Shown here: piece after piece, positions 2,131-42,551 of the stretch
Position numbering within the stretch: position 1 is the stretch's first letter
Layout: every line of letters starts with the position of its first letter
DNA from: Candidatus Rokuibacteriota bacterium
Lineage (GTDB): Bacteria > Methylomirabilota > Methylomirabilia > Rokubacteriales > CSP1-6
Reading direction: 5' to 3'
DNA: 42,551 nt
Assembly: GCA_030647435.1 (NCBI GenBank)
Contig: JAUSJX010000127.1
Coordinates: 1-42,551 of the forward strand
Made by a program: the position numbers and the translations under genes
Notes under the pieces: model-generated
Told to the model about the DNA's origin: nothing
Seen by the model: only the letters and a program-made list of their open reading frames with translations
Databases searched by the model: none

Positions 2131-4218
2131 GTGACCCGCACTTCGCTCGCCTCGTTTCTCGACCCGCACAGCATCGCGGTGATCGGCGCCTCCCGGGATC
2201 CCTCCAAGATCGGGGGCAGCGTGCTCGCCAACCTGCGCTCGGCGGGCTTCGCCGGCCGCATCGTGCCGGTGAACGTCCTCGCGACGACGGTCCAGGGGCT
2301 CCCGGCCTTTCCCTCGCTCCACGCGGTCGACGGCCCGGTCGACCTCGCCGTGATCACCGTGCCCGCCCCCGCTGTTCTCTCCGCGCTCAACGACTGCGTG
2401 GCCAAGGGCGTGGGCGGCGCCGTCGTGATCTCCGCCGGCTTCCGGGAAAGCGGTGAGGACGGACGGAAGCGGGAGGCCGAGCTCCGCGAGTGGCTCCGCG
2501 ACCAGCCCATCCGCGTCCTCGGCCCCAACTGCCTCGGGTGGATCAGGCCGTCGCGCCGTCTCAACGTCACGTTCGCCCCCGGCATGCCGGAGGCGGGAGG
2601 CATCGCGTTTGTCTCGCACTCCGGCGCGCTCGCCGTCGCCATTCTCGACTGGGCCCGCGAGCGCCGCATGGGCTTCTCGCTCTTCGCGAGCCTCGGCAAT
2701 CAGGCCGACCTCACCGAGGCGGACCTGCTCGAGGCCGTCACCGCTGACGCGGAGACGCGGGTCATCGCCGCCTATATCGAGGGCGTGGCGGACGGGCGGC
2801 GGTTCTTCGAGGCGCTGTGCGCGGCGGCGGCGGTCAAGCCCGTCGTGCTGCTGAAGGCCGGGCGCTCCGCCGAGGGCGCCCGCGCCGTCTCCTCGCATAC
2901 CGGCGCCCTCGCCGGCTCCGATCAGGCGTTCGACGCGGCGGTCAAGCAGGCGGGCGCGCTGCGCGCGGGCACCGTCGAGGAGCTCTTCGATCTCGCGCGC
3001 GGCTTGGTGAGCCAGCCCCTGCCGCGCGGCCGCCGGCTCCTCGTCGTGACCAATGGGGGAGGGCTCGGCATCGTCGCGACCGACGCGGCGCGGGAAGCGG
3101 GACTCGCGGTCGACCCGCTCGACGCGGCCGTGCGCGAGCGGCTCGCGGCCGTGCTGCCGCCGACAGCCAGCCTCGCCAATCCCGTCGATCTCGTCGGGGA
3201 CGCCGATGCCGCGCGCTACAGCAATGCGCTCCACGCCATCGGCGGCGCCGGGGCCGACGCCGCGCTCGTGGTGCTCACGGCTCAGGCAGCGACGGACGCG
3301 CTCGGCGTGGCGCGGGCGGTGATCGGCGCCACGCGGGGCTGGCCCATCCCGGTCGCCGGCGCCTTCGTCGGCGGCGCGCGCGTCGCGCCGGGTGCGCGCG
3401 CGTTCGAGGAGGCGGGGATCCCGTGCTATCCGTTTCCGGAGCCGGCGGTCAGGACCCTCGCGGGGATGGCGAGGCTCTTTGAGCGGCGCGGGCGCCGGGC
3501 GGAGCCGGCGCGCTTTCCCGCCCGCGTCGAGGAGTCGAAAGCGGCGGTTGCGCGGCTGAGCGCCTCCGGTCGGTCCACGTTCGGCATGGCGGAGCTCGAG
3601 CCCGTGCTCGAGAGCTATGGCATCCCCTGCGCGGCGGCGCGGCCGGCGACCACGTCGGCAGAGGCGGCCTCCGTCGCCGAGCGCCTCGGCTTCCCGGTGG
3701 CGCTCAAGCTGCGCTCCCCCGACATCACGCACAAGACCGAGGTGGGTGGGGTCCGCCTCGGCCTCGGCTCAGCCGGCGAGGTCGCGGAGGCGGCGACGGC
3801 CATGCTCGCGAGCGTACGCGCGGCGCGGCCCGACGCGCGTCTCGAGGGCGTGCTGGTCCAGCGGATGGCTCCGCCGGGCAAGGAGCTGCTGCTGGGCATG
3901 ATCAGGGATCCGCAGTTCGGTCCCCTGGTCGTGGTCGGCTTCGGCGGGATCTACGTCGAGGTGCTCAAGGACACGGCCGCGCGCCTCTGCCCGCTGGCCG
4001 CCCGCGACGCCCACGAGATGCTCGGCGAGCTCAGGATGGCGCCCCTGCTCAAGGGCGTCCGGGGGGAGCCGCCCGTCGACCTCGACGCGCTCGCCGAGAC
4101 GATCTGCCGCTTCGCCCAGCTCGCCGCCGATACGGCCGACCTCGCGGAGATCGAGGTGAATCCGCTCGTGGCCGGTCCCAGCGGCGTGATGGCCGTGGAC
4201 GCGCGAGCACGAATCTGA
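2131..4218 (+). CDS. ADP-forming acyl-CoA synthetase (acetate-CoA ligase type), fused alpha-beta
   Basis: This 695-residue cytosolic enzyme interconverts acyl-CoA, ADP and phosphate with acid, ATP and CoA. The alpha half has a CoA-binding start (IAVIGASRDPSKIGG) and the phosphohistidine motif SSHTGALAGSD, with His256. The beta half is an ATP-grasp domain with the second conserved His534 in DITHKTEVGG and the metal-site segment EIEVNPL near the end. Both catalytic histidines being present argues for an active enzyme. The GTG start has only a weak AGGA before it, and a possible -10 hexamer ends six bases upstream. It is transcribed away from the CoA transferase, and the two may act on the same acids. 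Confidence 0.93.
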   Translation: MTRTSLASFLDPHSIAVIGASRDPSKIGGSVLANLRSAGFAGRIVPVNVLATTVQGLPAFPSLHAVDGPVDLAVITVPAPAVLSALNDCVAKGVGGAVVISAGFRESGEDGRKREAELREWLRDQPIRVLGPNCLGWIRPSRRLNVTFAPGMPEAGGIAFVSHSGALAVAILDWARERRMGFSLFASLGNQADLTEADLLEAVTADAETRVIAAYIEGVADGRRFFEALCAAAAVKPVVLLKAGRSAEGARAVSSHTGALAGSDQAFDAAVKQAGALRAGTVEELFDLARGLVSQPLPRGRRLLVVTNGGGLGIVATDAAREAGLAVDPLDAAVRERLAAVLPPTASLANPVDLVGDADAARYSNALHAIGGAGADAALVVLTAQAATDALGVARAVIGATRGWPIPVAGAFVGGARVAPGARAFEEAGIPCYPFPEPAVRTLAGMARLFERRGRRAEPARFPARVEESKAAVARLSASGRSTFGMAELEPVLESYGIPCAAARPATTSAEAASVAERLGFPVALKLRSPDITHKTEVGGVRLGLGSAGEVAEAATAMLASVRAARPDARLEGVLVQRMAPPGKELLLGMIRDPQFGPLVVVGFGGIYVEVLKDTAARLCPLAARDAHEMLGELRMAPLLKGVRGEPPVDLDALAETICRFAQLAADTADLAEIEVNPLVAGPSGVMAVDARARI

Positions 4219-4227
4219 CCCGCTCCC

Positions 4228-5337
4228 TCAGGTCAGGACGGCGATCTTCTTTCGCTCGATGAGGCCGAAGTCGATCGCCGCGCCGAGCCCCGGGCCATCG
4301 AAGGCGTGGACCAGCCCCCGCTTGTCGACCTCGATGTCCTGGGCGAGGCCGTACTTCTGGGCTCCGGCCGGCAGCAGCACCTCGAAGAACTCGCAGTTCC
4401 GGATGGCCATCATCACGTGGAGGTTCGCCACGTTGTTGAGCGAGTTGCCGCCGTGGTGGATCTCGAAGTTCATGTGGAAGGCCTCGGCGAGATGCGCCGC
4501 CTTCACGAGGGCGGTGATGCCGCCCTTCACGGCGACGTCGCCGCGCAGGTAGTCGGTCGCCTGGTGGACGAGCCACGGCGCGTACGCGGTGAGGCCGCCC
4601 GGTGAGTACTCGGTGGCCAGGATCGGGATCGCCAGGTGCTGCTTGAGCTTCACGTAGCTCAGGAGGTCGTCATCCGCGAGCGGGTCCTCGTACCAGTAAA
4701 AGCCCAGCTCCTCGATGACCTTCCCCACGCGGAGCGCCTCGGGATACTGGTACGCCCAGGTCGGATCGAGCATGACGGTGAAGCCGTCGCCCACAGCGCG
4801 CCGGACGGCGCGGCAGACCTCCGCGTCGACGACTGGATCAGTAGGCGGATGGATCTTGTAAGCCGTCCAGCCCTCGGCTTTGAACCGCGTCGCTTCCTCC
4901 GCGTACGCCTCCTTGGTCGGCAGGACGGCCGAGCTGGCGTAGGCCGGGACGCTGTCGCGGTACGAACCAAGCAGCCGGTGAATGGGCAGGCCTGTAATCT
5001 TTCCCGCGATGTCCCAGAGCGCCACATCCATAGCGCCAATCGCGCGAAGCGTCGTCTGGCGGTTCTTCTGCCACATCGCCTGGTAGAGGCGCTCGCGCGC
5101 GAGCGGATCCTGGCCGAGCACGACCGGCTTCAGGTACTGGATGAGCGACTGCCCGTCCAGGTGCGCGCCGCGCATGGCCGAGCCGAGGAAGGCGTGACCC
5201 TTGACGCCGTCGTCGGTCTCGATCGTCACGAGGCCGAGCTGGCTCGCGCCGCTGAACGTCCCGGTGTGCCGGCCGTACTGGGTCGCCGGAATGTCGTCCC
5301 AGCCAAAGAGCGTCAAGTGAGCGTCGGTGATTTTCAT
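4228..5337 (-). CDS. Mandelate racemase/muconate lactonizing enzyme family protein
   Basis: The 369-residue protein belongs to the enolase superfamily, which abstracts an alpha proton from a carboxylate and stabilises the enolate with Mg2+. Visible landmarks are YKIHPP (KxH base motif), the metal ligands in LDPTWAY, WYEDPL and ILATEYS, and the general-base His in FEIHHGG. This pattern is closest to the mandelate racemase subgroup, acting as racemase or sugar-acid dehydratase; the substrate is not determinable. Its 3' end lies 9 bp from the convergent acyl-CoA synthetase. It diverges from livK, and GTGATAGT lies about 11 nt before its ATG as a possible -10. Confidence 0.9.
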   Translation of the reverse strand: MKITDAHLTLFGWDDIPATQYGRHTGTFSGASQLGLVTIETDDGVKGHAFLGSAMRGAHLDGQSLIQYLKPVVLGQDPLARERLYQAMWQKNRQTTLRAIGAMDVALWDIAGKITGLPIHRLLGSYRDSVPAYASSAVLPTKEAYAEEATRFKAEGWTAYKIHPPTDPVVDAEVCRAVRRAVGDGFTVMLDPTWAYQYPEALRVGKVIEELGFYWYEDPLADDDLLSYVKLKQHLAIPILATEYSPGGLTAYAPWLVHQATDYLRGDVAVKGGITALVKAAHLAEAFHMNFEIHHGGNSLNNVANLHVMMAIRNCEFFEVLLPAGAQKYGLAQDIEVDKRGLVHAFDGPGLGAAIDFGLIERKKIAVLT

Positions 5338-32872: not shown

Positions 32873-33856
32873 ATGGTGCAGTCGAGCGCGTTGCGCTACG
32901 AGGTCCTCGAGGGCTGGGAGCAGCTTCCCGCCGGATACAAGCACCGCGATGTCGCCGGCGTGGCGGTGGACTCGGAAGACCGCGTCTACCTGATCTGCCG
33001 CGGCGATCACCCCATCATTGTCTACGATTCCGGCGGCAGGTTCCTGCGCTCCTGGGGCCAGGGCGAGTTCACGTACCGGACCCACGGCATCAGCGTCGGG
33101 CCGGACGAAATGCTCTACTGCACGGACGACGGCAATCACACGATCCGCAAGTTCACGCCGGACGGCAAGCTGCTGATGACGCTTGGAACGTTGAACACGC
33201 CGTCCGACACCGGCTACGACGGCAAGGACACCGGCACCGTCTCGCGGGCCGCCGGCCCGTTCAACCGCCCGACGAACCTCGCGGTCGGGCCCAAGGGCGA
33301 CCTCTACGTGTCCGACGGCTACGGCAACTGCCGCGTGCACCAGTTCTCGCCAACCGGGGAGCTTCGGCGATCGTGGGGCACGCCGGGCGGCGGCCCCGGC
33401 GAGTTCTTCCTGCCGCACGGCATCGCCGTGGCGGCCGATGGGCGCGTCTTCGTCTGCGATCGCGAGAACGACCGCATCCAGATCTTCAGCCCGGACGGCG
33501 AGTATCTCAGCGAGTGGACCGACACCCAGCGGCCGACCCACCTCGTGTTCGACGCGCAGGGCCGGGCTCACGTGTCCGAGCTGTGGTGGCACAAGGGCCA
33601 GACCTCCCAGCGGCACGGGCCGACACTCGAGTCGAAGTACGGCCGGGTCAGCGTCTTCGACAAGGACGGCCGGGTCTTGGCCCGCTGGGGCACGCTCAAT
33701 GCCGAGGAGCCCGGCAGCTTCGCGGCCCCGCACGGCTTGGCGGTTGACTCGCGCGGCGACATCTACGTGGCGGAGGTGACCTGGACCTTCGCGGTGAGTC
33801 GAGGGCATGCCCGCGAGGACTGCCACACCTTCCAGAAGTTCACGCTGAAGCCCTGA
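32873..33856 (+). CDS. NHL-repeat beta-propeller protein
   Basis: The 327-residue protein is a six-bladed propeller of NHL repeats, for example VAGVAVDSEDRVYLICRGDH, GISVGPDEMLYCTDDGNH, NLAVGPKGDLYVSDGYGN and GIAVAADGRVFVCDRENDR. This resembles the peptidyl-alpha-hydroxyglycine amidating lyase-like family often met in this kind of genome. No signal peptide is evident. Function may be binding or lyase activity; it is not determinable here. Its own promoter lies upstream. The last 46 bases of the gene, and 44 bases beyond it, recur 870 bp downstream. Confidence 0.88.
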   Translation: MVQSSALRYEVLEGWEQLPAGYKHRDVAGVAVDSEDRVYLICRGDHPIIVYDSGGRFLRSWGQGEFTYRTHGISVGPDEMLYCTDDGNHTIRKFTPDGKLLMTLGTLNTPSDTGYDGKDTGTVSRAAGPFNRPTNLAVGPKGDLYVSDGYGNCRVHQFSPTGELRRSWGTPGGGPGEFFLPHGIAVAADGRVFVCDRENDRIQIFSPDGEYLSEWTDTQRPTHLVFDAQGRAHVSELWWHKGQTSQRHGPTLESKYGRVSVFDKDGRVLARWGTLNAEEPGSFAAPHGLAVDSRGDIYVAEVTWTFAVSRGHAREDCHTFQKFTLKP

Positions 33857-33900
33857 CCGGAGCCGGAAAACACACGTGGCTACGGAGCGCCCTATAGCCC
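33811..33900 (+). repeat. Direct repeat A: NHL gene tail plus 3' flank
   Basis: These 90 bases match 34681-34770 at 79 of 90 positions by my count, with no gaps. The block covers the last codons of the NHL gene (DCHTFQKFTLK) and a downstream inverted repeat, which in this copy has decayed (GGCTACGGAGCGCCCTATAGCC). Confidence 0.9.
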
Positions 33901-33903
33901 TGC

Positions 33904-33945
33904 CAGTTCAGGTCTGAGAACGGGTGGTATGTTATCTACGCTCTT
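33904..33945 (+). repeat. Dispersed 41-bp repeat, copy 1
   Basis: It starts CAGTTCAGGTCTGAGAACGG and ends GTTATCTACGCTCT. It is near identical to 42246-42286, and its last 31 bases recur at 36182-36212, all in the same orientation. It begins four bases after the decayed hairpin of the NHL tail and lies 57 bp before the secreted-protein gene. Confidence 0.9.
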
Positions 33946-34002
33946 CACATAACGCGTGATTTGACGCATCACGAAACCAACGATTGAGGGAAAGGAATCA
34001 GC

Positions 34003-34650
34003 ATGATGCAGAAAGGTTTCTTCATGCTGTTGGCGATTCTTGTTGTGTCCACTGCCTTGGCGGCTCCCGACACAAAGGGAACATCGGAAAGGATGCCTGG
34101 TTCGGTCACCGTCGAAACGTTGTGCGCCAATGCACAGGCCGATGCGACGTACTTTATCCCGGAGGCCTTCACGGAACACAGCCTTCGGAGCATCTCCGGA
34201 AAGCATGGGTATCGCACGAGTCCGAATTGCCCCTTCTGGGTCGCGGACTTTTCAATGAACAGCAAGTCCAACACCTTCGTCGATCCGCGCACGAACCAGC
34301 GTATCAAACAGCGGACTCAATTTTATGGCCGTGCCCATGACTTACCCAGTTCTCCGTCGGCGGACGGCACGATGCCTGTCGTCGATGAGGATTGCAAACG
34401 ATATACCGTTGAATATATCGTCTACAGAAAATTCAAGCACGAAGCAAACTTTGTCCTCCAAAAGCACGTCACTTCGCAAGGCAGTGTGCTGGGTGGCGGG
34501 TGCATTCAGCAACCCAAACCTGATCTGGCTTCCTATAAGACGGAAGCGCCCGACGCCAATGTCCTGGTAATCAGAGTGGCCACGCGAGTAAAACTGCGCA
34601 CGTCCTGGCAGGAGACGGCCGCGAGGGCGGACGACGCCCCTCTCGAATAG
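34003..34650 (+). CDS. Secreted protein of unknown function, AT-richer than its neighbours
   Basis: I do not recognise this 215-residue protein. A clear signal peptide (MMQKGFFMLLAILVVSTALA) is followed by a soluble chain with at least four cysteines (LCAN, NCPF, DCKR, GGCIQ), suggesting disulfides outside the cytoplasm. GAAAGGAATCAGC before the ATG is a plausible binding site. Base composition is visibly lower in GC than all flanking genes; the stretch around 34381-34440 is about 40% GC, and codons such as ATA, AAA and TTG are used freely. It sits between the two copies of the duplicated NHL tail. These signs point to acquisition by transfer. Confidence 0.7.
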   Translation: MMQKGFFMLLAILVVSTALAAPDTKGTSERMPGSVTVETLCANAQADATYFIPEAFTEHSLRSISGKHGYRTSPNCPFWVADFSMNSKSNTFVDPRTNQRIKQRTQFYGRAHDLPSSPSADGTMPVVDEDCKRYTVEYIVYRKFKHEANFVLQKHVTSQGSVLGGGCIQQPKPDLASYKTEAPDANVLVIRVATRVKLRTSWQETAARADDAPLE

Positions 34651-34666
34651 CCTATCCTCGGGCCGC

Positions 34667-34726
34667 ATGCTCGGCATCGTCCGCCAGGACTGCCACACCT
34701 TCCAGAAGTTCACGCTGAAGCTCTGA
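34667..34726 (+). pseudogene. Remnant of the NHL-repeat gene 3' end
   Basis: Twenty codons (MLGIVRQDCHTFQKFTLKL, then stop) repeat the C-terminus of the intact NHL protein 870 bp upstream. No propeller sequence precedes them. It is either the displaced original end of the NHL gene or a trace of a lost paralogue. Confidence 0.8.
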
Positions 34727-34770
34727 CGGCGGTCGGAAAACAAACGGGGCTACGGAGCGCTCCGTAGCCC
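34681..34770 (+). repeat. Direct repeat B: second copy of the NHL tail and flank
   Basis: It pairs with 33811-33900 (79 of 90 identical, offset exactly 870 bp). In this copy the terminal hairpin is perfect, so the two have diverged since duplication. Confidence 0.9.
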
Positions 34771-34771
34771 C
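34746..34771 (+). terminator. Perfect 26-bp palindrome, likely terminator
   Basis: GGGGCTACGGAGC is followed directly by its reverse complement GCTCCGTAGCCCC, then GCAAGATTTT with a short T run. It resembles a rho-independent terminator, presumably the original one of the NHL gene. Confidence 0.7.
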
Positions 34772-34779
34772 GCAAGATT

Positions 34780-34992
34780 TTGGTGGAGCTGAGGCGTGTC
34801 GAACTTGACAAGTTGTTCGTAAATACCACAGGCGGGAGGCTGTGCCGCTACGTGCTGAGGTGCGGCTGGAGCGATGGGACGACGCATCTGCTCTTCGAGC
34901 CAGTGGAGTTTCTGGAGAAGCTGGCGGCGCTGACGCTTGCTTTCGCCCCGTCCCGTACGCCGAGAACAAGCATTGTGTTACTTACGCACTGA
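34780..34992 (+). pseudogene. C-terminal remnant of an IS91/IS801-type transposase
   Basis: The 70-codon frame contains WSDGTTHLLFEPVEFLEKLA and then ALT, which closely resembles the conserved late segment of IS91/IS801-family (HUH, Y2) transposases. It ends in a short, altered version of their PRxxxVLYHG segment (PRTSIVLLTH). The nuclease domain with the His-hydrophobe-His and tyrosine motifs is absent, so it cannot be active. The element's ends are not identifiable. It lies directly after the duplicated NHL tail and is a plausible trace of the event that rearranged this stretch. Confidence 0.65.
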
Positions 34993-35034
34993 CGACGACT
35001 AGCGTGAGGTCGAGGGAGAGAGGATCCGGCCCAA

Positions 35035-36147
35035 ATGGCCAGTGGCGAGGTGGTGATCGTGGGAAGCGGCATCGTGGGCATGGTCACTGCCTACTACCTC
35101 GCGAAGGCGGGCGTTCCCAGCGTCGTCGTCGAGCGCGACGCCATCGGCAGCCATGCTTCGGGCTTCGCCTATGGCGGGCTGAGCCCGGTGACCGGCTTCG
35201 GGATCCCAGGGCCCCTCGCCGAGATCGCCCAGGACGGGATGCGGCTGCACCGCGAGCTGGCCGAGAGCGTGGTCGAGGAAACGGGCATCGGCATCGACTT
35301 CCGCGTGCGGCCCTCGCTCGCCCTGGCCTTCACCGAGGCCGACGCGCAGAGGCTCCAGGCCGCCCTGCCCTGGCAGCAGCGGCAACCGGGATGTTCGGCG
35401 CGCTGGCTGGACGCCTCGGAGGCCCGCCGCGTGGAGCCTCGCATCTCGGACGAGACCCTCGGGGCGGTGTCGATCGAGGGCACCGCCGACGTCGAGCCCT
35501 ATCGTCTCGTGCTGGCGCTCACCCGGGCGGCCGAGCGCCTGGGCGTGACTGTCCGGCACGGGCGGGTCACCGGCCTGCGGCGCGAAGGGGGGCAGGTCAC
35601 GGGCGTGATCCTCGAGCGGGACGAGGTCGCCTGCTCCAGGGTAGTGCTGGCCCTCGGCCCCTGGAGCGGGGAGACATCGGCCTGGATCGACGTGCCGATC
35701 GAGGTCCGCCCCCTCAAGGGCCAGATCCTGCGGCTCCAGGCTCCCGGGCCGCCGGTCGCGTGCTCCGTCGGCTGGGGCCACAACTATGCCACCACCAAGA
35801 CCGACGGCCTGCTGTGGGCGGGCACGACCGAGGAGGAGGCGGGCTTCGACGAGGAGTCGACGACCGAGGCCCGCGACGAGATCGGCGCAGCCCTGGTGAG
35901 GATGCTGCCCGCGATGGCGGACGCCCAGGTCGTGCACCAGACCGCCTGCCTGCGTCCGGTGGCTTCGGACGGGCTGCTCCTGCTCGGCCGCGTGCCCGGG
36001 CTCGAGCATGTCTACATGGCCACGGGCGCCGGCCGCAAGGGCATCCTGTTCGGCCCGGCCATGGGGCGCGCCATCGCCGATCTCGTTCTGACCGGGGGCA
36101 CGACGATCGTCCTCGAGGCCTTTGCCCCCGGGCGCTTCGCCCGGTAG
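35035..36147 (+). CDS. FAD-dependent oxidoreductase (DAO / glycine oxidase-like)
   Basis: The 370-residue protein starts with the FAD dinucleotide fold EVVIVGSGIVGMVTAYYLAK and the acidic ribose-binding residue in VVVERD. It ends with the family's FAD-contact segment MATGAGRKGILFGPAMGRAI. This is the D-amino-acid oxidase/dehydrogenase-like superfamily, oxidising secondary or primary amines such as sarcosine, glycine or D-amino acids. The substrate is unknown. GAGAGAGGATCC precedes the ATG. It is flanked by dispersed repeat copies 1 and 2. Confidence 0.88.
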   Translation: MASGEVVIVGSGIVGMVTAYYLAKAGVPSVVVERDAIGSHASGFAYGGLSPVTGFGIPGPLAEIAQDGMRLHRELAESVVEETGIGIDFRVRPSLALAFTEADAQRLQAALPWQQRQPGCSARWLDASEARRVEPRISDETLGAVSIEGTADVEPYRLVLALTRAAERLGVTVRHGRVTGLRREGGQVTGVILERDEVACSRVVLALGPWSGETSAWIDVPIEVRPLKGQILRLQAPGPPVACSVGWGHNYATTKTDGLLWAGTTEEEAGFDEESTTEARDEIGAALVRMLPAMADAQVVHQTACLRPVASDGLLLLGRVPGLEHVYMATGAGRKGILFGPAMGRAIADLVLTGGTTIVLEAFAPGRFAR

Positions 36148-36181
36148 CCGGCTTCGGATCGCGCGGCCCGGCTCTCGGGGG

Positions 36182-36212
36182 CTGAGAACGGGTGTTGTGT
36201 TATCTACGCTCT
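36182..36212 (+). repeat. Dispersed repeat, copy 2 (31 bp)
   Basis: CTGAGAACGGGTGTTGTGTT followed by ATCTACGCTCT matches the inner 31 bases of copies 1 and 3 with one or two changes each. The left ten bases of the longer copies are missing. On the minus strand its last bases AGAGCGTAG supply the final codons and stop of the hydrolase gene. Confidence 0.88.
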
Positions 36213-36917
36213 AACGCGCTCGCACGACGCTGACATGAGGAGACGCGCCAGCTCCGCGGGCTGGCTCAGCATCGGATAGTGTCCGGTGTCCATCTCCGTG
36301 TACGAGGCCTTCAGGCGCTCCGCCGTCCGGCGCTGATGCGACTCGGGAGGGTTGCGCGCCTGCCGGCAGCGGATCACCGCCGCCTTCCACGTATGCTCCC
36401 AGAAGTTCGTCGGCCCCATGGGCGCCTCGAGCGCCGCGATCGGATGGGGTGTGTAGCGGGCGAGCACCCACGCCCGCATCGCCGGCTCGAGATCGGCGAA
36501 CATGCGCCCTTCAGCGTCCTGGCGCGTCGGCGCCGTGGTCATCTCGGTTACTTCATTGGCGGCGGGACGGTTCACGATATCGGCGACGCGCTCGGCAGGC
36601 AGGAGCGCCAGCGCGTCCACGAAGACGAGGCGCGAAATCCGGTCGCCGGCCAGCTCGGCCGCCTGACAGATCACCATGCCGCCCGAGCTGGTGCCCACCA
36701 GCACGACGTCTTCCAGATCTTCGTAGAAGAGGAGCCGCGCGACCTCATGGGCATGCGTGCCCACGGTGATTCCGGGGCGGACTTGATGGTGCCGCTCTCC
36801 GCAGCCTTCGAGCGTGGGCGCATAGACCTCATGCCCGGCGGCCCGCAGGCGTTGTGCCACCGGCTTCCATATCCAACCGCCCTGATACGCTCCGTGGACG
36901 AGTACGTAGGTGGCCAT
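36204..36917 (-). CDS. Alpha/beta hydrolase
   Basis: The 237-residue protein is a compact alpha/beta hydrolase of the esterase/hydroxynitrile-lyase-like kind. It opens with YVLVHGAYQGGWIWKPVA (oxyanion region) and has nucleophile Ser77 in VGTSSGGM, an acid strand (LVFVDALAL) and catalytic His in DTGHYPML. The ATG at 36917, 4 bp after the upstream gene's stop, begins the homology. The last codons (Arg-Ala-stop) come from dispersed repeat copy 2, but the fold appears complete before that. It is probably co-transcribed with the dehydrogenase gene upstream. The substrate is unknown. Confidence 0.88.
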   Translation of the reverse strand: MATYVLVHGAYQGGWIWKPVAQRLRAAGHEVYAPTLEGCGERHHQVRPGITVGTHAHEVARLLFYEDLEDVVLVGTSSGGMVICQAAELAGDRISRLVFVDALALLPAERVADIVNRPAANEVTEMTTAPTRQDAEGRMFADLEPAMRAWVLARYTPHPIAALEAPMGPTNFWEHTWKAAVIRCRQARNPPESHQRRTAERLKASYTEMDTGHYPMLSQPAELARLLMSASCERVRA

Positions 36918-36921
36918 CGCC

Positions 36922-37818
36922 TCACCCGCCGCCGCCGACCCGCACGCCGGCGAGCCGTTCGAATACCTTGATGACGGCGGAGCCGTCCTCCTTGTTGAAT
37001 CCCGCGGCGCGCGCCATCTGATAGACCTGCTGGCTGACGTTCGCGAGGAGCACCGGCACGCCGAGCTGCTTGGCGAAGGCCGTCTCCAGCTCCTGGTCCT
37101 TGAACGAGATGTCGACGGTGCCGCCCGGCGAGAAATCACGCTTCAGTATCTTCGGCATGCGCGTCTCGAAAGCGAAGCTCGTACCGGTACTGACACGCAC
37201 CACGTCGTAGATCATCTGCGGGTCAAGGCCGGCCTTCACGCCCATGACCAGCGCTTCGGCGATGGCGACCGTGTTGACCTGGATGAGCATGTTGTTGACG
37301 AGCTTCATGGCGAGGCCCTGTCCGAGCCCGCCGACGTGAAAAACGTTGTTTCCCATGGCCTCGAAGAGATCCTTGCACGCGGCCACCGTCTCCGACGTCC
37401 CTCCCACGATGATCGACAGCTCCCCCGATGCTGCGCGCCCCGTGCCGCCGCTCACGGGCGCGTCGAGCATGGCGATGCCTCGTGGCGCGAGCTGGTCGGC
37501 GAGTCGGCGCGCCGCGAACGGGTCGATCGTGCTCATGCAGGCCACGATATGTCCAGGCCGGGCGCTCCGAACAATGCCGTGCTCGCCCGCGATGACGGCC
37601 TCGGCCTGCGCGGTCGTCTCCACCATGCAGATCGTGCGCTCGACCGAGGCGGCTACACTCTCGGCGGAATCGACGATCGTGGCGCCGCGCGTGCGCCACA
37701 GCTCGGCTTTCGCCGGATCGATGTCGTGCGCCACGAGCGAGAAGCCGTGCTTGACGAGGTTCAACGCCATGGGACCGCCCATGGCCCCGAGCCCGATGAA
37801 TCCTACCGTGCCTGGCAT
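36922..37818 (-). CDS. 3-hydroxyisobutyrate dehydrogenase-family NAD(P)-dependent oxidoreductase
   Basis: The 298-residue enzyme has the N-terminal cofactor fold GTVGFIGLGAMGGPMALNL, the substrate-site DAPVSGGTGRAASGELS, and the catalytic Lys in GLAMKLVNNMLIQVN. It would oxidise a beta-hydroxyacid such as 3-hydroxyisobutyrate, tartronate semialdehyde reduction being the alternative. A GTG at 37827 is also in frame, but AAGGAGGC at 37828-37835 is well placed only for the ATG at 37818. The alpha/beta hydrolase follows at once, suggesting a shared catabolic step. Confidence 0.92.
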   Translation of the reverse strand: MPGTVGFIGLGAMGGPMALNLVKHGFSLVAHDIDPAKAELWRTRGATIVDSAESVAASVERTICMVETTAQAEAVIAGEHGIVRSARPGHIVACMSTIDPFAARRLADQLAPRGIAMLDAPVSGGTGRAASGELSIIVGGTSETVAACKDLFEAMGNNVFHVGGLGQGLAMKLVNNMLIQVNTVAIAEALVMGVKAGLDPQMIYDVVRVSTGTSFAFETRMPKILKRDFSPGGTVDISFKDQELETAFAKQLGVPVLLANVSQQVYQMARAAGFNKEDGSAVIKVFERLAGVRVGGGG

Positions 37819-37943
37819 CGCGATCACGCCTCCTTGAGGGATTTCGAATGACGCAAATCCTGCCAGATCAGAGTGGATGGGTCAAACCCGGGCTTGGGGG
37901 CCGGGCTCCGTGAAAGGAATCTCCGTTCGGCGCCTCGAGGGGT

Positions 37944-38465
37944 TTACTTGGCGAAGTGATCCCGCGCCAGCGGCGGGCGCACGTCAGCTCCCGAGAAGAG
38001 CAGCTGCACGATGATCTCGACCGAGGCGTCGCCGCCGAGCCCCCGGCAACCGATGGCGGCGCGGGTGGGCTTGCCGCGGTCGCCGTAGATCTCGACGAGC
38101 AGGTCGGCCGCGCCGTTGATCACCCGGGGCTGATCATTGAAGCCCGGGGCCGAGTTCACGAAGCCCGTCATGTGGACGATCTGCTGCACGCGATCCAGGT
38201 CGCCCAGCGCGTACTTCACGGCCGCCAGCGTCGTGAGCGCGGCATAGCGGGCCGCCTCGTAACCCTGCTCGATGGTCAGGTTCTCGCCCAACACGCCGGG
38301 GAGATAGAGCGTGCCGTCTTTGATCGGCACGGTGCCGGAGAGATGGAGCATGCTCTGCACGGGGAAGTGCGAGATGTAATGGGCGCCCGAGGCATTGGTG
38401 CGGTACAGATCCTCGAGGTTCGGCACCATCAATCCCAGCCCCTTCAGCTTGTCCTCGACGATCAT
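37944..38465 (-). CDS. RidA/YjgF/Rid family protein
   Basis: The 173-residue protein is a Rid-family member with the landmarks MLHLSGTVPIKDG, EQGYEAARYAALTTLAAVK and VNSAPGFNDQPRVINGAADL, and the Arg-bearing strand KPTRAAIGCRGLGGDASVEI. RidA hydrolyses reactive enamine/imine intermediates from amino-acid metabolism; this longer, divergent form (usual length near 130) may have another substrate. It lies upstream of the dehydrogenase gene on the same strand with a 125-bp gap that holds no other gene. Confidence 0.88.
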   Translation of the reverse strand: MIVEDKLKGLGLMVPNLEDLYRTNASGAHYISHFPVQSMLHLSGTVPIKDGTLYLPGVLGENLTIEQGYEAARYAALTTLAAVKYALGDLDRVQQIVHMTGFVNSAPGFNDQPRVINGAADLLVEIYGDRGKPTRAAIGCRGLGGDASVEIIVQLLFSGADVRPPLARDHFAK

Positions 38466-38613
38466 ACCGGCCGATGGTGCCAGATGGCCGGGGACAGGTC
38501 AAACCCGATGTCGGAGGGGGTCATTGGCGCCCACCCGGCCCATTGGAGAGAGATCAACTCCCACCAAGACGACCTCGACCGGGAGCAGGTCCTGTCTCTC
38601 AGTGATCGCCTTG

Positions 38614-41007
38614 TCAGAGACCTCGCCGCACTGGCGGCACGACAGCCCGGCGGGCCTCGGCGTACCGCTTGATCGCGCGATACTGGCTCTCGCCGTCCAG
38701 GCCGGCCTCGGCGAGCACGACCTCGCCCTGGCCGCTTCCGAGGAAGTGCCCGTGCTGGAACGGGTGGAGCGTCATCCCGCGGCCGAGGTCGGATCGCACC
38801 CAGCGGAACATCGTCGGCAAGGTGAAGCCCGTGATCCCCATCGCCTCCTGCGCGCGCTCCTCGGGGAAGATCGCGCGCTGCCGCTCCGGCGGGAGCAGGT
38901 CGAACAGTTCGGCGCTCGCGACGTAGTAGACCCAGGGATCGAGCCCGTCCCGATCGAGCCGCGCCAGCGCCTCCTGGACGAATGCGTAGGTGACGCCGCT
39001 CTCCTGGAGGATCACCGTCCCGTCGCCCTCTCCCCGCGGCCGCCGCAGGAGGTAGACACCGCTCACGGCATCCTGGGCGGGCGCCAGGTGGAGGCGCGCG
39101 CGGTCGAGGACGACCTCGTTCGGACGCGTCACGAACGGGGCGATGATCGCCGGCCGCTTGGCGAGCGCGGCGGTCAGGAGCGGCCAGATCTCCTGAGGGT
39201 CCCACGGTGTCAGCGTGATGGCCGTTCCCCGCGGGAAATTCTCCTGGAGGAGCTGGAGGGGCTGGGGGTCGGCGTGGGTCGGCCCGTCCTCGCCGGTCGT
39301 CAGGCCGGCATGAGCGCACACGACGATCATTGGCCGGTACGGATCCCCGGCCCGCGCGTGGCGCGCCTGGGCGCCGATGGCGTGCAGGCGCGCGGCGATG
39401 TGGCTCAGCGGCGCGATGAACGCGCCGTACGACGAGCCGACGCCGATGTGATGTCCGAACGTGGAGAGGCCGGACAGGATCCCGGCCATCCCGTCCTCGC
39501 AGATGCCGCCGATCGAGAGGATCCGCGATCCCGGGTTCGCGCTGGCGTTCCAGTACCCGTCGGCGAACCCGACGCCCGCGGCACCGACGCTCGTCGAGGC
39601 GAGGAGGTCGGCGGAGGCGGTGAAGAGCGCGCCGCCCGACGCGCGGTTCAGGTGGCCGAGCGCACGTCCAAGCTCGCCCCGGAGCGTCGTCACCGTTCCA
39701 GGCTCGAGGAGAAGCTCGACGGGCGTCCGAGCGCCCTCGGCCGCCAGCTCGTACACCGCGTCCACCCGGGGCGCGGCGGATCGGGGACGACGGCCCCGCC
39801 GGTCGAGCCGATCGCGAGCGGCGACGAGCCGGGCGGAGAGCGCTTCCACGAGGGGCCGGCTCTCCTCCAGCACCTTGCGCACGATCCCCAGCGACTCCCA
39901 GAAGCACGCCTCGATGACGGCGCTGCTGTCCGGGCTCGCCATGCAACGCTGCTGGCCCGCCTCGCACGTCGGCACCATCGCGTCCGCCACGCCCGTCAAC
40001 CCGGCGATGGCCTGGCAGAAGCCGTCGGAGCACATCTTGTGGCCGGCCCCGTGCGCCGCCTTGCCCTCGATCCCGTACTGCCAGCCCTTCACCGTGCGGT
40101 AGACGATCGCCGTCGGCTGGCCGTTGGCGATGGCGGCGCTCGCGCGCTGGGCGGCGGAGACCTGGCGGAGGTCCTTGCCGTCGGGCACGAAGACGACGTT
40201 CCAGTCGTGGAGATAGAAGAGCTCCATCGGCGTCCACTGCACGTAGTCGCCCGGCTGACCGTCTTCACGACACACCCGGTTCGAGTCGATCGAGGCCTGG
40301 TTCCAGTCGAGGTGGACGACGGCATTCCCCAGCGAGGCGGTGCCCGCCGCCGCCAGCGCTTCCACCACGCGTCCGGGGGTCAAGCCGCCCTCGCCCTCGA
40401 TGACGTGAACCCTTGGCGCATCGTCGCCGAAGTAGTCCCTGGCGCCGAACGCCAGCCCGAGGGAGCTGGCGAGTCCCACGCCGGATGCCCCCGTGGAGAG
40501 CCGGACGAAGGGCGTGGCCGGTGTCGGATGGCCGTCGAGGGCCTTGGCGCCGAACTTCGTGACGAGCGGCGTCTTCGTGACGGGATTGCGCCGGAACCCG
40601 AGCAGGTCCTCCAGCCGCAGGCGCGACTTCGCCTCCGGCGGGAGGAGGTCAGGCGCGCCGATCCGGGCGATCTCGTCGCGGAGCGCCCACATCGCATAGA
40701 GCCCCATGGCCTTGTGCCCGGCGGCATAGGAGATGATGTCCGCGTCCTCGCGATCGGGGCGCGCGAGGTCGTAGTCCAGCGCGTCGAAGAGCGCGGCGGC
40801 CACGATGCGTCCCGAGGAGATCGAGCCCCCCGGATGTCCCGAGGTGGGCACGTAGTTGTAGAGGAGGGCGCAGAGGGAGCGATACACGAGATCCAGGGTC
40901 TCGAAGTGGCTGATCTCCGCAGGGGACAGCGGGCGGCCCTGCCCCCCGTCGAGGATCTCGCCGACATCCGTGTAGACGGCACGCCGCGGTCCCATCTGGA
41001 ATGCCAT
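38614..41007 (-). CDS. Large transketolase-like thiamine-diphosphate enzyme
   Basis: The 797-residue protein has the transketolase start SGHPGGSISSGRIVAAALF (about 56-74) and the thiamine-diphosphate/Mg site GEG at 205-207 with its partner NQ at 236-237, replacing the usual GDG...NN. The pyrimidine-binding middle domain (GEDGPTHADPQPLQLLQ, about 570) and C-terminal domain follow. It should transfer two-carbon or acyl units in the cytosol. It is longer than classical transketolase (about 660) and shorter than pyruvate dehydrogenase E1 (about 890), so the reaction is uncertain. The ATG at 41007 is chosen because AAGGAGGGATCC (41008-41019) precedes it. No second-component genes adjoin. Confidence 0.85.
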   Translation of the reverse strand: MAFQMGPRRAVYTDVGEILDGGQGRPLSPAEISHFETLDLVYRSLCALLYNYVPTSGHPGGSISSGRIVAAALFDALDYDLARPDREDADIISYAAGHKAMGLYAMWALRDEIARIGAPDLLPPEAKSRLRLEDLLGFRRNPVTKTPLVTKFGAKALDGHPTPATPFVRLSTGASGVGLASSLGLAFGARDYFGDDAPRVHVIEGEGGLTPGRVVEALAAAGTASLGNAVVHLDWNQASIDSNRVCREDGQPGDYVQWTPMELFYLHDWNVVFVPDGKDLRQVSAAQRASAAIANGQPTAIVYRTVKGWQYGIEGKAAHGAGHKMCSDGFCQAIAGLTGVADAMVPTCEAGQQRCMASPDSSAVIEACFWESLGIVRKVLEESRPLVEALSARLVAARDRLDRRGRRPRSAAPRVDAVYELAAEGARTPVELLLEPGTVTTLRGELGRALGHLNRASGGALFTASADLLASTSVGAAGVGFADGYWNASANPGSRILSIGGICEDGMAGILSGLSTFGHHIGVGSSYGAFIAPLSHIAARLHAIGAQARHARAGDPYRPMIVVCAHAGLTTGEDGPTHADPQPLQLLQENFPRGTAITLTPWDPQEIWPLLTAALAKRPAIIAPFVTRPNEVVLDRARLHLAPAQDAVSGVYLLRRPRGEGDGTVILQESGVTYAFVQEALARLDRDGLDPWVYYVASAELFDLLPPERQRAIFPEERAQEAMGITGFTLPTMFRWVRSDLGRGMTLHPFQHGHFLGSGQGEVVLAEAGLDGESQYRAIKRYAEARRAVVPPVRRGL

Positions 41008-41104
41008 GGATCCCTCCTTGCGAGCCTCTTTCGCCCGACAACCGGCCAAGTATCCCACTCTCGTTCATACCTGCCGGGGTTGGCGCCGTCAATCAGCCAT
41101 CTGG

Positions 41105-41200
41105 GGGGTCAGGTCTTGCAATCCAACATCCGGCCTCGGCCGATGATCCCTCGCCGCAGCGGAGTCCGGCGGACAATGTAGGAATGCAAGACCTGACCCC
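41105..41200. repeat. 96-bp REP-like/MITE-like palindromic element
   Basis: The ends GGGGTCAGGTCTTGCAATCC and (reverse complement of the right end) GGGGTCAGGTCTTGCATTCC are terminal inverted repeats of about 26 bp with three mismatches. I recall similar ends next to REP-associated tyrosine transposases, but no transposase is here, so it would be a non-autonomous copy. It abuts the open frame of the glycosyltransferase at 41201 and removes that gene's start. Confidence 0.85.
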
Positions 41201-42169
41201 GATCCCCTCGGCGAGAACACGCTCGGCCTGCGCAAGTGGCACATCGATCCGATCGTAGACGCGATCAACCGGTCACCCTCGCGCTACGTTGGCGACATCT
41301 TCTTCTCCGGCGAGGACCTCTCGCGGTTCGACATCGTCGTCATCGTCAAGCACTTCGAGTCCTTCACCCCGGACGTCGTGCGTCGGCTGCACGAGCGGCC
41401 CACGCGGCTTGTCTACGACACGGCCGACATCCGGTTCGTCCAGACCACGAGCGGGCGGCGCGACATCTACGAGGACCCCGACGCGCTCGAGCGGCACTAT
41501 AAGCCATTCCTCCGGTCGATGGACGCCCTGATCCTGGCGAGCCCGCTCCAGCGACGAGACTTCGAGGACCTCGGGATCCCACAGGTGGAGATCGCCCGCC
41601 CGCTACTCAACCGCCGGCACCGGACCACCTACGCGCACGGCGGTCCGATCCGGGTGGTATGGCAAGGCTATCGGGAGAACCTCGCGCCGATGCTGCAGCT
41701 CCACCCCATCATCGAGCAGCTCCGGGAGGAAACCGGCCTCGACATCCGGCTCGTGTACGACACGAGCGGGCCGGCCCGCGACGAGGGCCCGATCCAGTAC
41801 ACCGAATGGAAGATCCACCGCTGGGAGCGTGTGCTCGCCGCGTCCGATGTAGCCGTGGTGATCAAGCCGCTCGACGACCCGTTCCAGCAACGCAAGGCGC
41901 AGACGAAGGTGGTCAGCTACATGGCCGCCGGCCTCCCCGTCGTGTGTACGCCGTCGGAGGCGGACCGGCGCGTCATCGCCCACGGGGAGACCGGATTCTT
42001 CGCGTTCGAGGATCGCGAGTGGCACGCGTGCCTCGGCGCACTGGTGACGGACCCGTCACTTCGGGAGCGGGTTGGCACGGCCGCGCGGCAGCACGTCCTG
42101 GAAGGGTATGACGTGGAGCGGATCGTCGCCGACTACTTGCGGCTATTCGACCGGCTCCTTGGGCCCTGA
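41201..42169 (+). pseudogene. Glycosyltransferase (family 1/4-like), 5' end replaced by the REP element
   Basis: An open frame runs straight from the end of the REP element: DPLGENTLGLRKWHIDPIVD, then FFSGEDLSRFDIVVIVKHFE, LVYDTADIRFVQ, and later GPIRVVWQGYRENLAP and the GT-B donor-site-like YMAAGLPVVCTPSEADRRVI. It ends with ADYLRLFDRLLGP. These 322 residues match a glycosyltransferase lacking about the first strand. The first in-frame start codon is a GTG at 41378, well inside the conserved region, so the gene is probably inactive or produces only a shortened protein. Confidence 0.75.
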
Positions 42170-42245
42170 CCCCTGCGCAGCGCGTGACCCAGACGCGCCC
42201 GTGACCCACAGCCGATCTCTGAAACCCTTGGCATCTGTGCCAGTA

Positions 42246-42286
42246 CAGTTCAGGTCTGAGAACGGGTGTTATGTTACCTACGCTCT
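42246..42286 (+). repeat. Dispersed 41-bp repeat, copy 3
   Basis: CAGTTCAGGTCTGAGAACGG through TACGCTCT matches copy 1 at all but two of 41 positions. It begins 76 bp after the glycosyltransferase stop. Its right end is fused to the PafA/Dop frame and gives that frame its stop codon on the minus strand. Confidence 0.9.
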
Positions 42287-42551
42287 GCCCTTCGAGTCGG
42301 TGTTGTTCTTGTAGATCAGGATCCGCTGCTCGGGTGGCGAGACGGCCTCCGCCCGCACGCGGGCGAGGTCCAGGATGCGCTCGCCGGCCCTGTCCCAGAT
42401 GACGCAGTCACGCGGGTTGGTCGTCTCCGGCGAGGAGTACTCGGGGTGCGCGTGGTCGACGTAGAAGCGCGCGCCGTTCGAGAGGATGAGGTTGATGAGG
42501 CGCGACTCCTCCTTCGACGGCGTCTCCTTCTCCTCCATGTACTCGAAGCCG
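42278..42551 (-). pseudogene. PafA/Dop family (Pup ligase or depupylase) fragment, cut at the repeat; continues beyond window
   Basis: The visible frame reads GFEYMEEKETPSKEESRLIN, ARFYVDHAHPEYSSPE, NPRDCVIWDRAGERIL and ILIYKNNTDSKG, all hallmark segments of the prokaryotic ubiquitin-like (Pup) ligase/deamidase family. The family normally continues with an Asn-Ser-Tyr-Gly-Cys-His-Glu-Asn stretch and several hundred more residues. Here the frame instead runs into the repeat and stops after Arg-Ala. More than three quarters of the protein, with much of its catalytic site, is therefore missing at this locus. It points to a Pup-proteasome system in this lineage, possibly with an intact copy elsewhere. 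Confidence 0.82.

Follow-up and report, generated by a model that had tools for sequence, protein, structure and literature searches.

The window (that is, the whole 42,551-nt stretch analysed, contig C127 of genome G000, GenBank assembly GCA_030647435.1 of Candidatus Rokuibacteriota bacterium) contains an intact NHL beta-propeller gene of 327 amino acids (positions 32873–33856, plus strand; Pfam NHL, 8e-28), the 3′ end of which is the first of three copies of a short repeat. A preliminary description had reported a gapless duplication of this gene tail 870 bp apart, and a repeat search of the window bears this out, recovering a 96-nt ungapped repeat of 86% identity (33811–33906 and 34681–34776, spacing 870) that blastn extends to 33804–33906 and 34673–34776 (85.6%, E = 2e-26), far beyond chance level. 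On folding, the outer copy (copy 2; 34673–34776, plus strand) forms a perfect palindrome (34745–34772) with a 12-bp stem and −25.4 kcal/mol, compared with −9.8 kcal/mol for the decayed palindrome (about 33875–33900) of the inner copy (copy 1; 33764–33906, plus strand), just as that description had it. Copy 3 lies on another contig of the same genome (C38, 13669–13782) and matches copy 2 at 93% over 114 bp and copy 1 at 90.6% over 138 bp. The idea that the second tail is the end of a full paralogue elsewhere is rejected, given that neither extra tail is attached to the body of an NHL gene (that is, both are orphans).

Copy 3 is located directly 3′ of a complete tRNA-Ala(GGC) gene, and copy 2 runs on to position 34794, into the last 14 nt of a truncated tRNA-Ala(GGC) gene (34781–34794, minus strand) that exactly match the 3′ end of the tRNA on C38. 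A palindrome of this kind also lies behind tRNA-Ala(GGC) in G006, G013, G009, G015, G016, G010 and other relatives of the family, at loci without an NHL gene. Because tRNA-Ala carries such a palindrome without an NHL neighbour, we read it as the terminator of tRNA-Ala(GGC) and reject the alternative that it is the NHL gene's own, so that its earlier assignment to the NHL gene tail does not hold. The repeat unit is thus the NHL gene end together with the terminator of a neighbouring tRNA gene, present in three copies across approximately 9 kb, and the distribution of the palindrome in the relatives suggests that the NHL gene in this lineage once ended against the tRNA terminator. In several family relatives (G009, G013 and G019), tRNA-Leu(CAA) and tRNA-Ala(GGC) are close together; in C38 the two (L025, 1167–1253 and 7608–7683) are separated by roughly 6 kb, a stretch that includes a branched-chain amino-acid-type ABC transporter cluster.

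Relatives differ at this site. In G003, the closest relative, half of the palindrome is still present behind the NHL ortholog (96% protein identity), and a different gene comes next from the same breakpoint (L026, about 4056–5002), its product beginning with a signal-peptide-like sequence; secreted-type genes thus occupy one spot in both genomes but are not the same, and the NHL/tRNA-Ala(GGC) junction is a concrete place at which two close relatives differ in insert content. The comparison of orthologous NHL loci that had been proposed as a check returned no empty site, as other DNA lies behind the NHL gene in the 27 loci listed; the orthologous loci scanned for tRNAs yielded none, and the uninterrupted order of NHL gene, terminator and tRNA-Ala was seen in no relative examined. 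The outcome that would have spoken against an insertion, an arrangement common to all relatives, did not occur either, as the relatives do not share that of the window.

Behind tail copy 1, the first inserted gene (34003–34650, plus strand) encodes a protein of 215 amino acids with an N terminus that by eye resembles a signal peptide. Its G+C content is 55% compared with 68–73% in neighbouring genes (about 69%), and no match was found for its product in Pfam, NCBIfam, PHROGs, PDB, plasmids, viral contigs or the relatives searched, in line with the initial impression of a foreign-looking gene between the repeats. Before it lies the end of a mobile element (end #1, 33904–33944, plus strand; motif GAGAACGGGTGGTATGTTATCTACGCTC), which is 95% identical over 41 bp to a third end at 42246–42286 (end #3, plus strand; motif search and blastn); a second end (end #2, 36179–36212, plus strand) was found by repeat and motif searches. 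Beyond tail copy 2 and the tRNA scrap follows an internally deleted C-terminal scrap of an IS91-family (Y2) transposase gene (34840–34936, plus strand; tblastn E = 1e-9), of which 34866–34936 matches the Y2 gene of contig C139 at 93% over 71 bp, and behind this a probable diverged element end (34957–34990, plus strand), which is tentative, with 7 mismatches in its 26-nt core. A gene for an FAD-dependent oxidoreductase (35035–36147, plus strand; DAO/ThiO-like, Pfam DAO 2.7e-69, also by NCBIfam) sits between two element ends. The bracketed segment further contains a run of metabolic genes (36922–41058; hydroxyacid dehydrogenase, Rid-like protein and transketolase-like protein) with host-like G+C content where measured, and a glycosyltransferase frame (41378–42169) whose matches fall chiefly in the C-terminal part of the respective families, as if its N-terminal portion were missing.

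The motif of the ends (33911–33944, 36179–36212 and 42253–42286; 34–41 nt) is dispersed in the genome, with 46 copies of one form at up to 3 mismatches and 54 of another form, against 0 in the control. Within the genus it occurs in 5/5 genomes; a search of 55 genomes outside the genus gave none. In three genomes, a stretch encoding a Y2 transposase of the IS91 family, or just the C-terminal part of one, has the motif at its 3′ end (G000 C139, G001 C70 and G004 C415); in C139 the motif lies approximately 210 nt after the transposase stop. Most genome copies are solo units of approximately 82 nt with a hairpin and no transposase, the consensus of which folds with a CCGAGGG..CCCTCGG stem. IS91-family insertion sequences encode a Y2/HUH transposase, have distinct oriIS and terIS ends, and insert next to a GAAC/CAAG-type tetranucleotide without target duplication. 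At family level (that is, in C139, G001 C70 and G004 C415), the transposase (PF04986) is present, as is a hairpin-bearing, oriIS-like 3′ end placed 3′ of the transposase gene. Judged from these sequence features, the short dispersed repeat noted earlier behind the NHL gene does exist, with the correction that it is an IS91-family element end; a reading as integron attC sites was set aside, given that the ends belong to Y2-transposase elements and attC core motifs are absent by eye. Unlike typical members of the family, most copies here are solo 3′ ends of approximately 82 nt without a transposase (34–41 nt for the three in the window), and no conserved target tetranucleotide was seen in their flanks, the insertion point at dop having been deduced from the native sequence. 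The window itself holds the transposase scrap and neither an intact autonomous element nor an intact transposase. Our literature search found no paper joining 'Rokubacteria' and 'IS91'; for the nomenclature of IS91-type ends see PMC13393415.

The right end of the window leads to the third tail. Its last 266 bp (42286–42551, minus strand) are part of a duplicated fragment of dop (Pup-ligase family), 98.9% identical to C154, and one 26-bp node is common to the ends of four contigs (C37, with the start of dop; C38; C154, with the remainder of the gene; and the window), with a 141-bp overlap at 100% between C37 and C38. In most relatives tested, the dop region aligns collinearly with the final 1.7 kb of C37, which reaches into dop (96.6% to G001), so that the native gene runs from C37 to C154 and the window must continue into C38, a join with good but indirect support. 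Along the joined path, element end #3 is followed by a dop fragment totalling 381 bp, tail copy 3, the terminator and the intact tRNA-Ala gene, placing copy 3 at 8,904 bp from copy 1 and 8,034 bp from copy 2. At the C38 end beyond tail copy 3 lies another part of dop. The fragment is host DNA in duplicate, 99–100% identical to this genome's own dop.

As the join depends on a metagenome assembly (short overlap and synteny) and not on reads, an assembly or binning artefact was considered, in which copies 2 and 3 would stem from other strains and the arrangement would be chimeric. The assembly is of the metagenome type, in 176 contigs, C38 ends approximately 145 bp after the tail, and the tail copies differ by approximately 10%, near the distance between G000 and G003. 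However, copies 1 and 2 lie within one contig of 42.5 kb, the ends of C38, C37, C127 and C154 form a consistent repeat node, and the dop piece is near-identical to the genome's own gene; we regard this explanation as highly improbable.

The order of the joined path is best read as NHL gene with tail 1, decayed terminator, insert, tail 2 with terminator and tRNA scrap, insert, and tail 3 with terminator and tRNA-Ala. It is well supported that DNA was inserted at the NHL/tRNA-Ala junction, approximately 8.8 kb in at least two rounds. The insertion behind the NHL gene proposed in the preliminary description is therefore upheld, with the amendment that its 870 bp is only the first of these insertions and that three tails, not two, are involved.

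As in genomic islands at tRNA 3′ ends, the insert lies against tRNA-Ala(GGC), with a scrap of the tRNA 3′ end at one boundary; a recombinase could have used the tRNA 3′ end, with the scrap and its terminator at 34745–34794 as an attR-like site and the intact tRNA on the attL side. Copy 2 does end inside the tRNA (14 nt at 34781–34794, the intact gene being on C38), and tRNA-Ala 3′ halves with their terminator are duplicated in G013 (C238 and C9) and G006 (C113), a pattern expected of integrase att sites. Unlike in such islands, the repeats extend far outside the tRNA, reaching approximately 100 bp into the NHL tail and well past the usual att core; the tRNA part is missing from copy 1, and the junctions bear element ends and a Y2 transposase scrap. 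No integrase was recognised among the window's open reading frames at 33900–42551, on C38 near the tRNA (the family search covering part of the frames) or in the 3-kb interval of G013. We consider a tRNA-targeted island quite improbable at this locus.

We rather suggest, with slightly better than even confidence in the account as a whole, repeated insertion combined with IS91-type capture closed by tail copies. Starting from an ancestor in which the NHL gene ended at the tRNA-Ala(GGC) terminator, DNA would have entered the junction in at least two rounds, each closed again by the NHL tail, the terminator and some of the tRNA, so that three tails now bracket approximately 8.8 kb. The inserts carry IS91-family (ISCR-like) rolling-circle element ends and the transposase scrap, along with DNA captured from elsewhere (that is, the AT-rich secreted-protein gene and the 381-bp piece of the host's own dop). 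Replication that started at the oriIS-like 3′ end of the element may have failed to stop at the opposite end and copied the NHL tail and terminator as well, yielding circles of tail, terminator, element end and captured DNA, and these circles may have recombined back into a resident tail, the route proposed for complex class 1 integrons with ISCR1. The terminator is still perfect in the copy next to the intact tRNA and has decayed in the copy fused to the element end. For the ISCR-like mechanism as such, we put the chances at about even.

Complex class 1 integrons with ISCR1 repeat a conserved segment after each captured stretch, and the model is that circles from aberrant rolling-circle replication recombine into that segment (PMC7707992). 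The present locus resembles this arrangement: captured DNA is flanked on either side by a copy of a short host segment, an IS91-type end separates the first copy from the cargo, the units form a stack (tail 1, end #1, cargo and tail 2; then tail 2 through end #3, the dop fragment and tail 3), and the model of circles and homologous recombination (PMC7707992) fits. It differs in that the window is without integron, ISCR1 or resistance gene, the repeated segment is chromosomal (that is, the NHL tail plus tRNA-Ala terminator), and no complete ISCR/rcr gene is found in the unit, only ends and the deleted scrap at 34840–34936.

Several observations run counter to our preferred account, in addition to the reliance on the assembly join. 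By classical IS91 direction, the dop fragment on the outer side of end #3 is on the target side and would not be cargo; end #3 may therefore first have inserted into a dop copy, and that copy been carried along later. The motif at 34957 is weak, the search of the window recovered neither an intact autonomous element nor an intact transposase, and the relatives do not show the NHL gene, terminator and tRNA-Ala in uninterrupted order. Finally, element-end flanks elsewhere are not enriched for duplicated host DNA: in a test of 19 flanks of 120 nt (second copy of at least 85% identity; controls 1.1 kb away; best candidates scored per search), approximately 4/19 flanks had such a copy versus 3/19 controls. 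This lack of genome-wide enrichment would agree with plain accretion, in which an element end inserted beside the NHL gene and the tails arose by unequal crossing-over or repair-driven duplication, with no capture circles. The junction of dop and tail 3, with only approximately 2 bp of microhomology and small indels, would also agree, and an element end need not drive every junction. Such a scheme nevertheless requires several independent duplications of the same 100–140 bp, each closing an insert begun by an element end, and we consider it unlikely.

To our knowledge, most descriptions of ISCR-type gene capture come from resistance plasmids of clinical bacteria. Here, the same layout occurs in a chromosome from an uncultured environmental phylum (soil and groundwater); an integron is lacking, and the cargo consists of ordinary metabolic genes and of unknown ones. 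We rate this as known biology (that is, gene capture) in a new variant and not a new kind; if the account is true, rolling-circle capture would shape genomes outside resistance settings. A more far-reaching version, which we hold as a tentative and rather doubtful possibility, is that uncultured Rokubacteria possess a chromosomal capture system, with the tail of a host gene and a tRNA terminator as the repeated recombination segment, at which short solo IS91 ends moved in trans would stack captured genes. Such a system would amount to a natural counterpart of the ISCR complex integrons that does without an integron, and its activity would be recent enough for a dop fragment of 99–100% identity to persist.

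Two further observations concern the elements and tRNAs themselves. Second copies of the tRNA-Ala(GGC) 3′ half with its terminator occur in G013 (C238, L114 70–152 and 3232–3363, the duplicate having the same orientation as the full gene; and C9, 2970–3052) and in G006 (C113, 5424–5510), and look like attachment-site duplicates of small islands. The IS91-type ends are much expanded in the genome of the window (54 versus 2–11 elsewhere in the genus); its approximately 50 3′ ends are mostly solo units with a fixed left boundary, and often several lie in the same orientation 1–3 kb apart (for example, C87 at 444, 2990 and 4845; C119 at 16813, 18986 and 21535).
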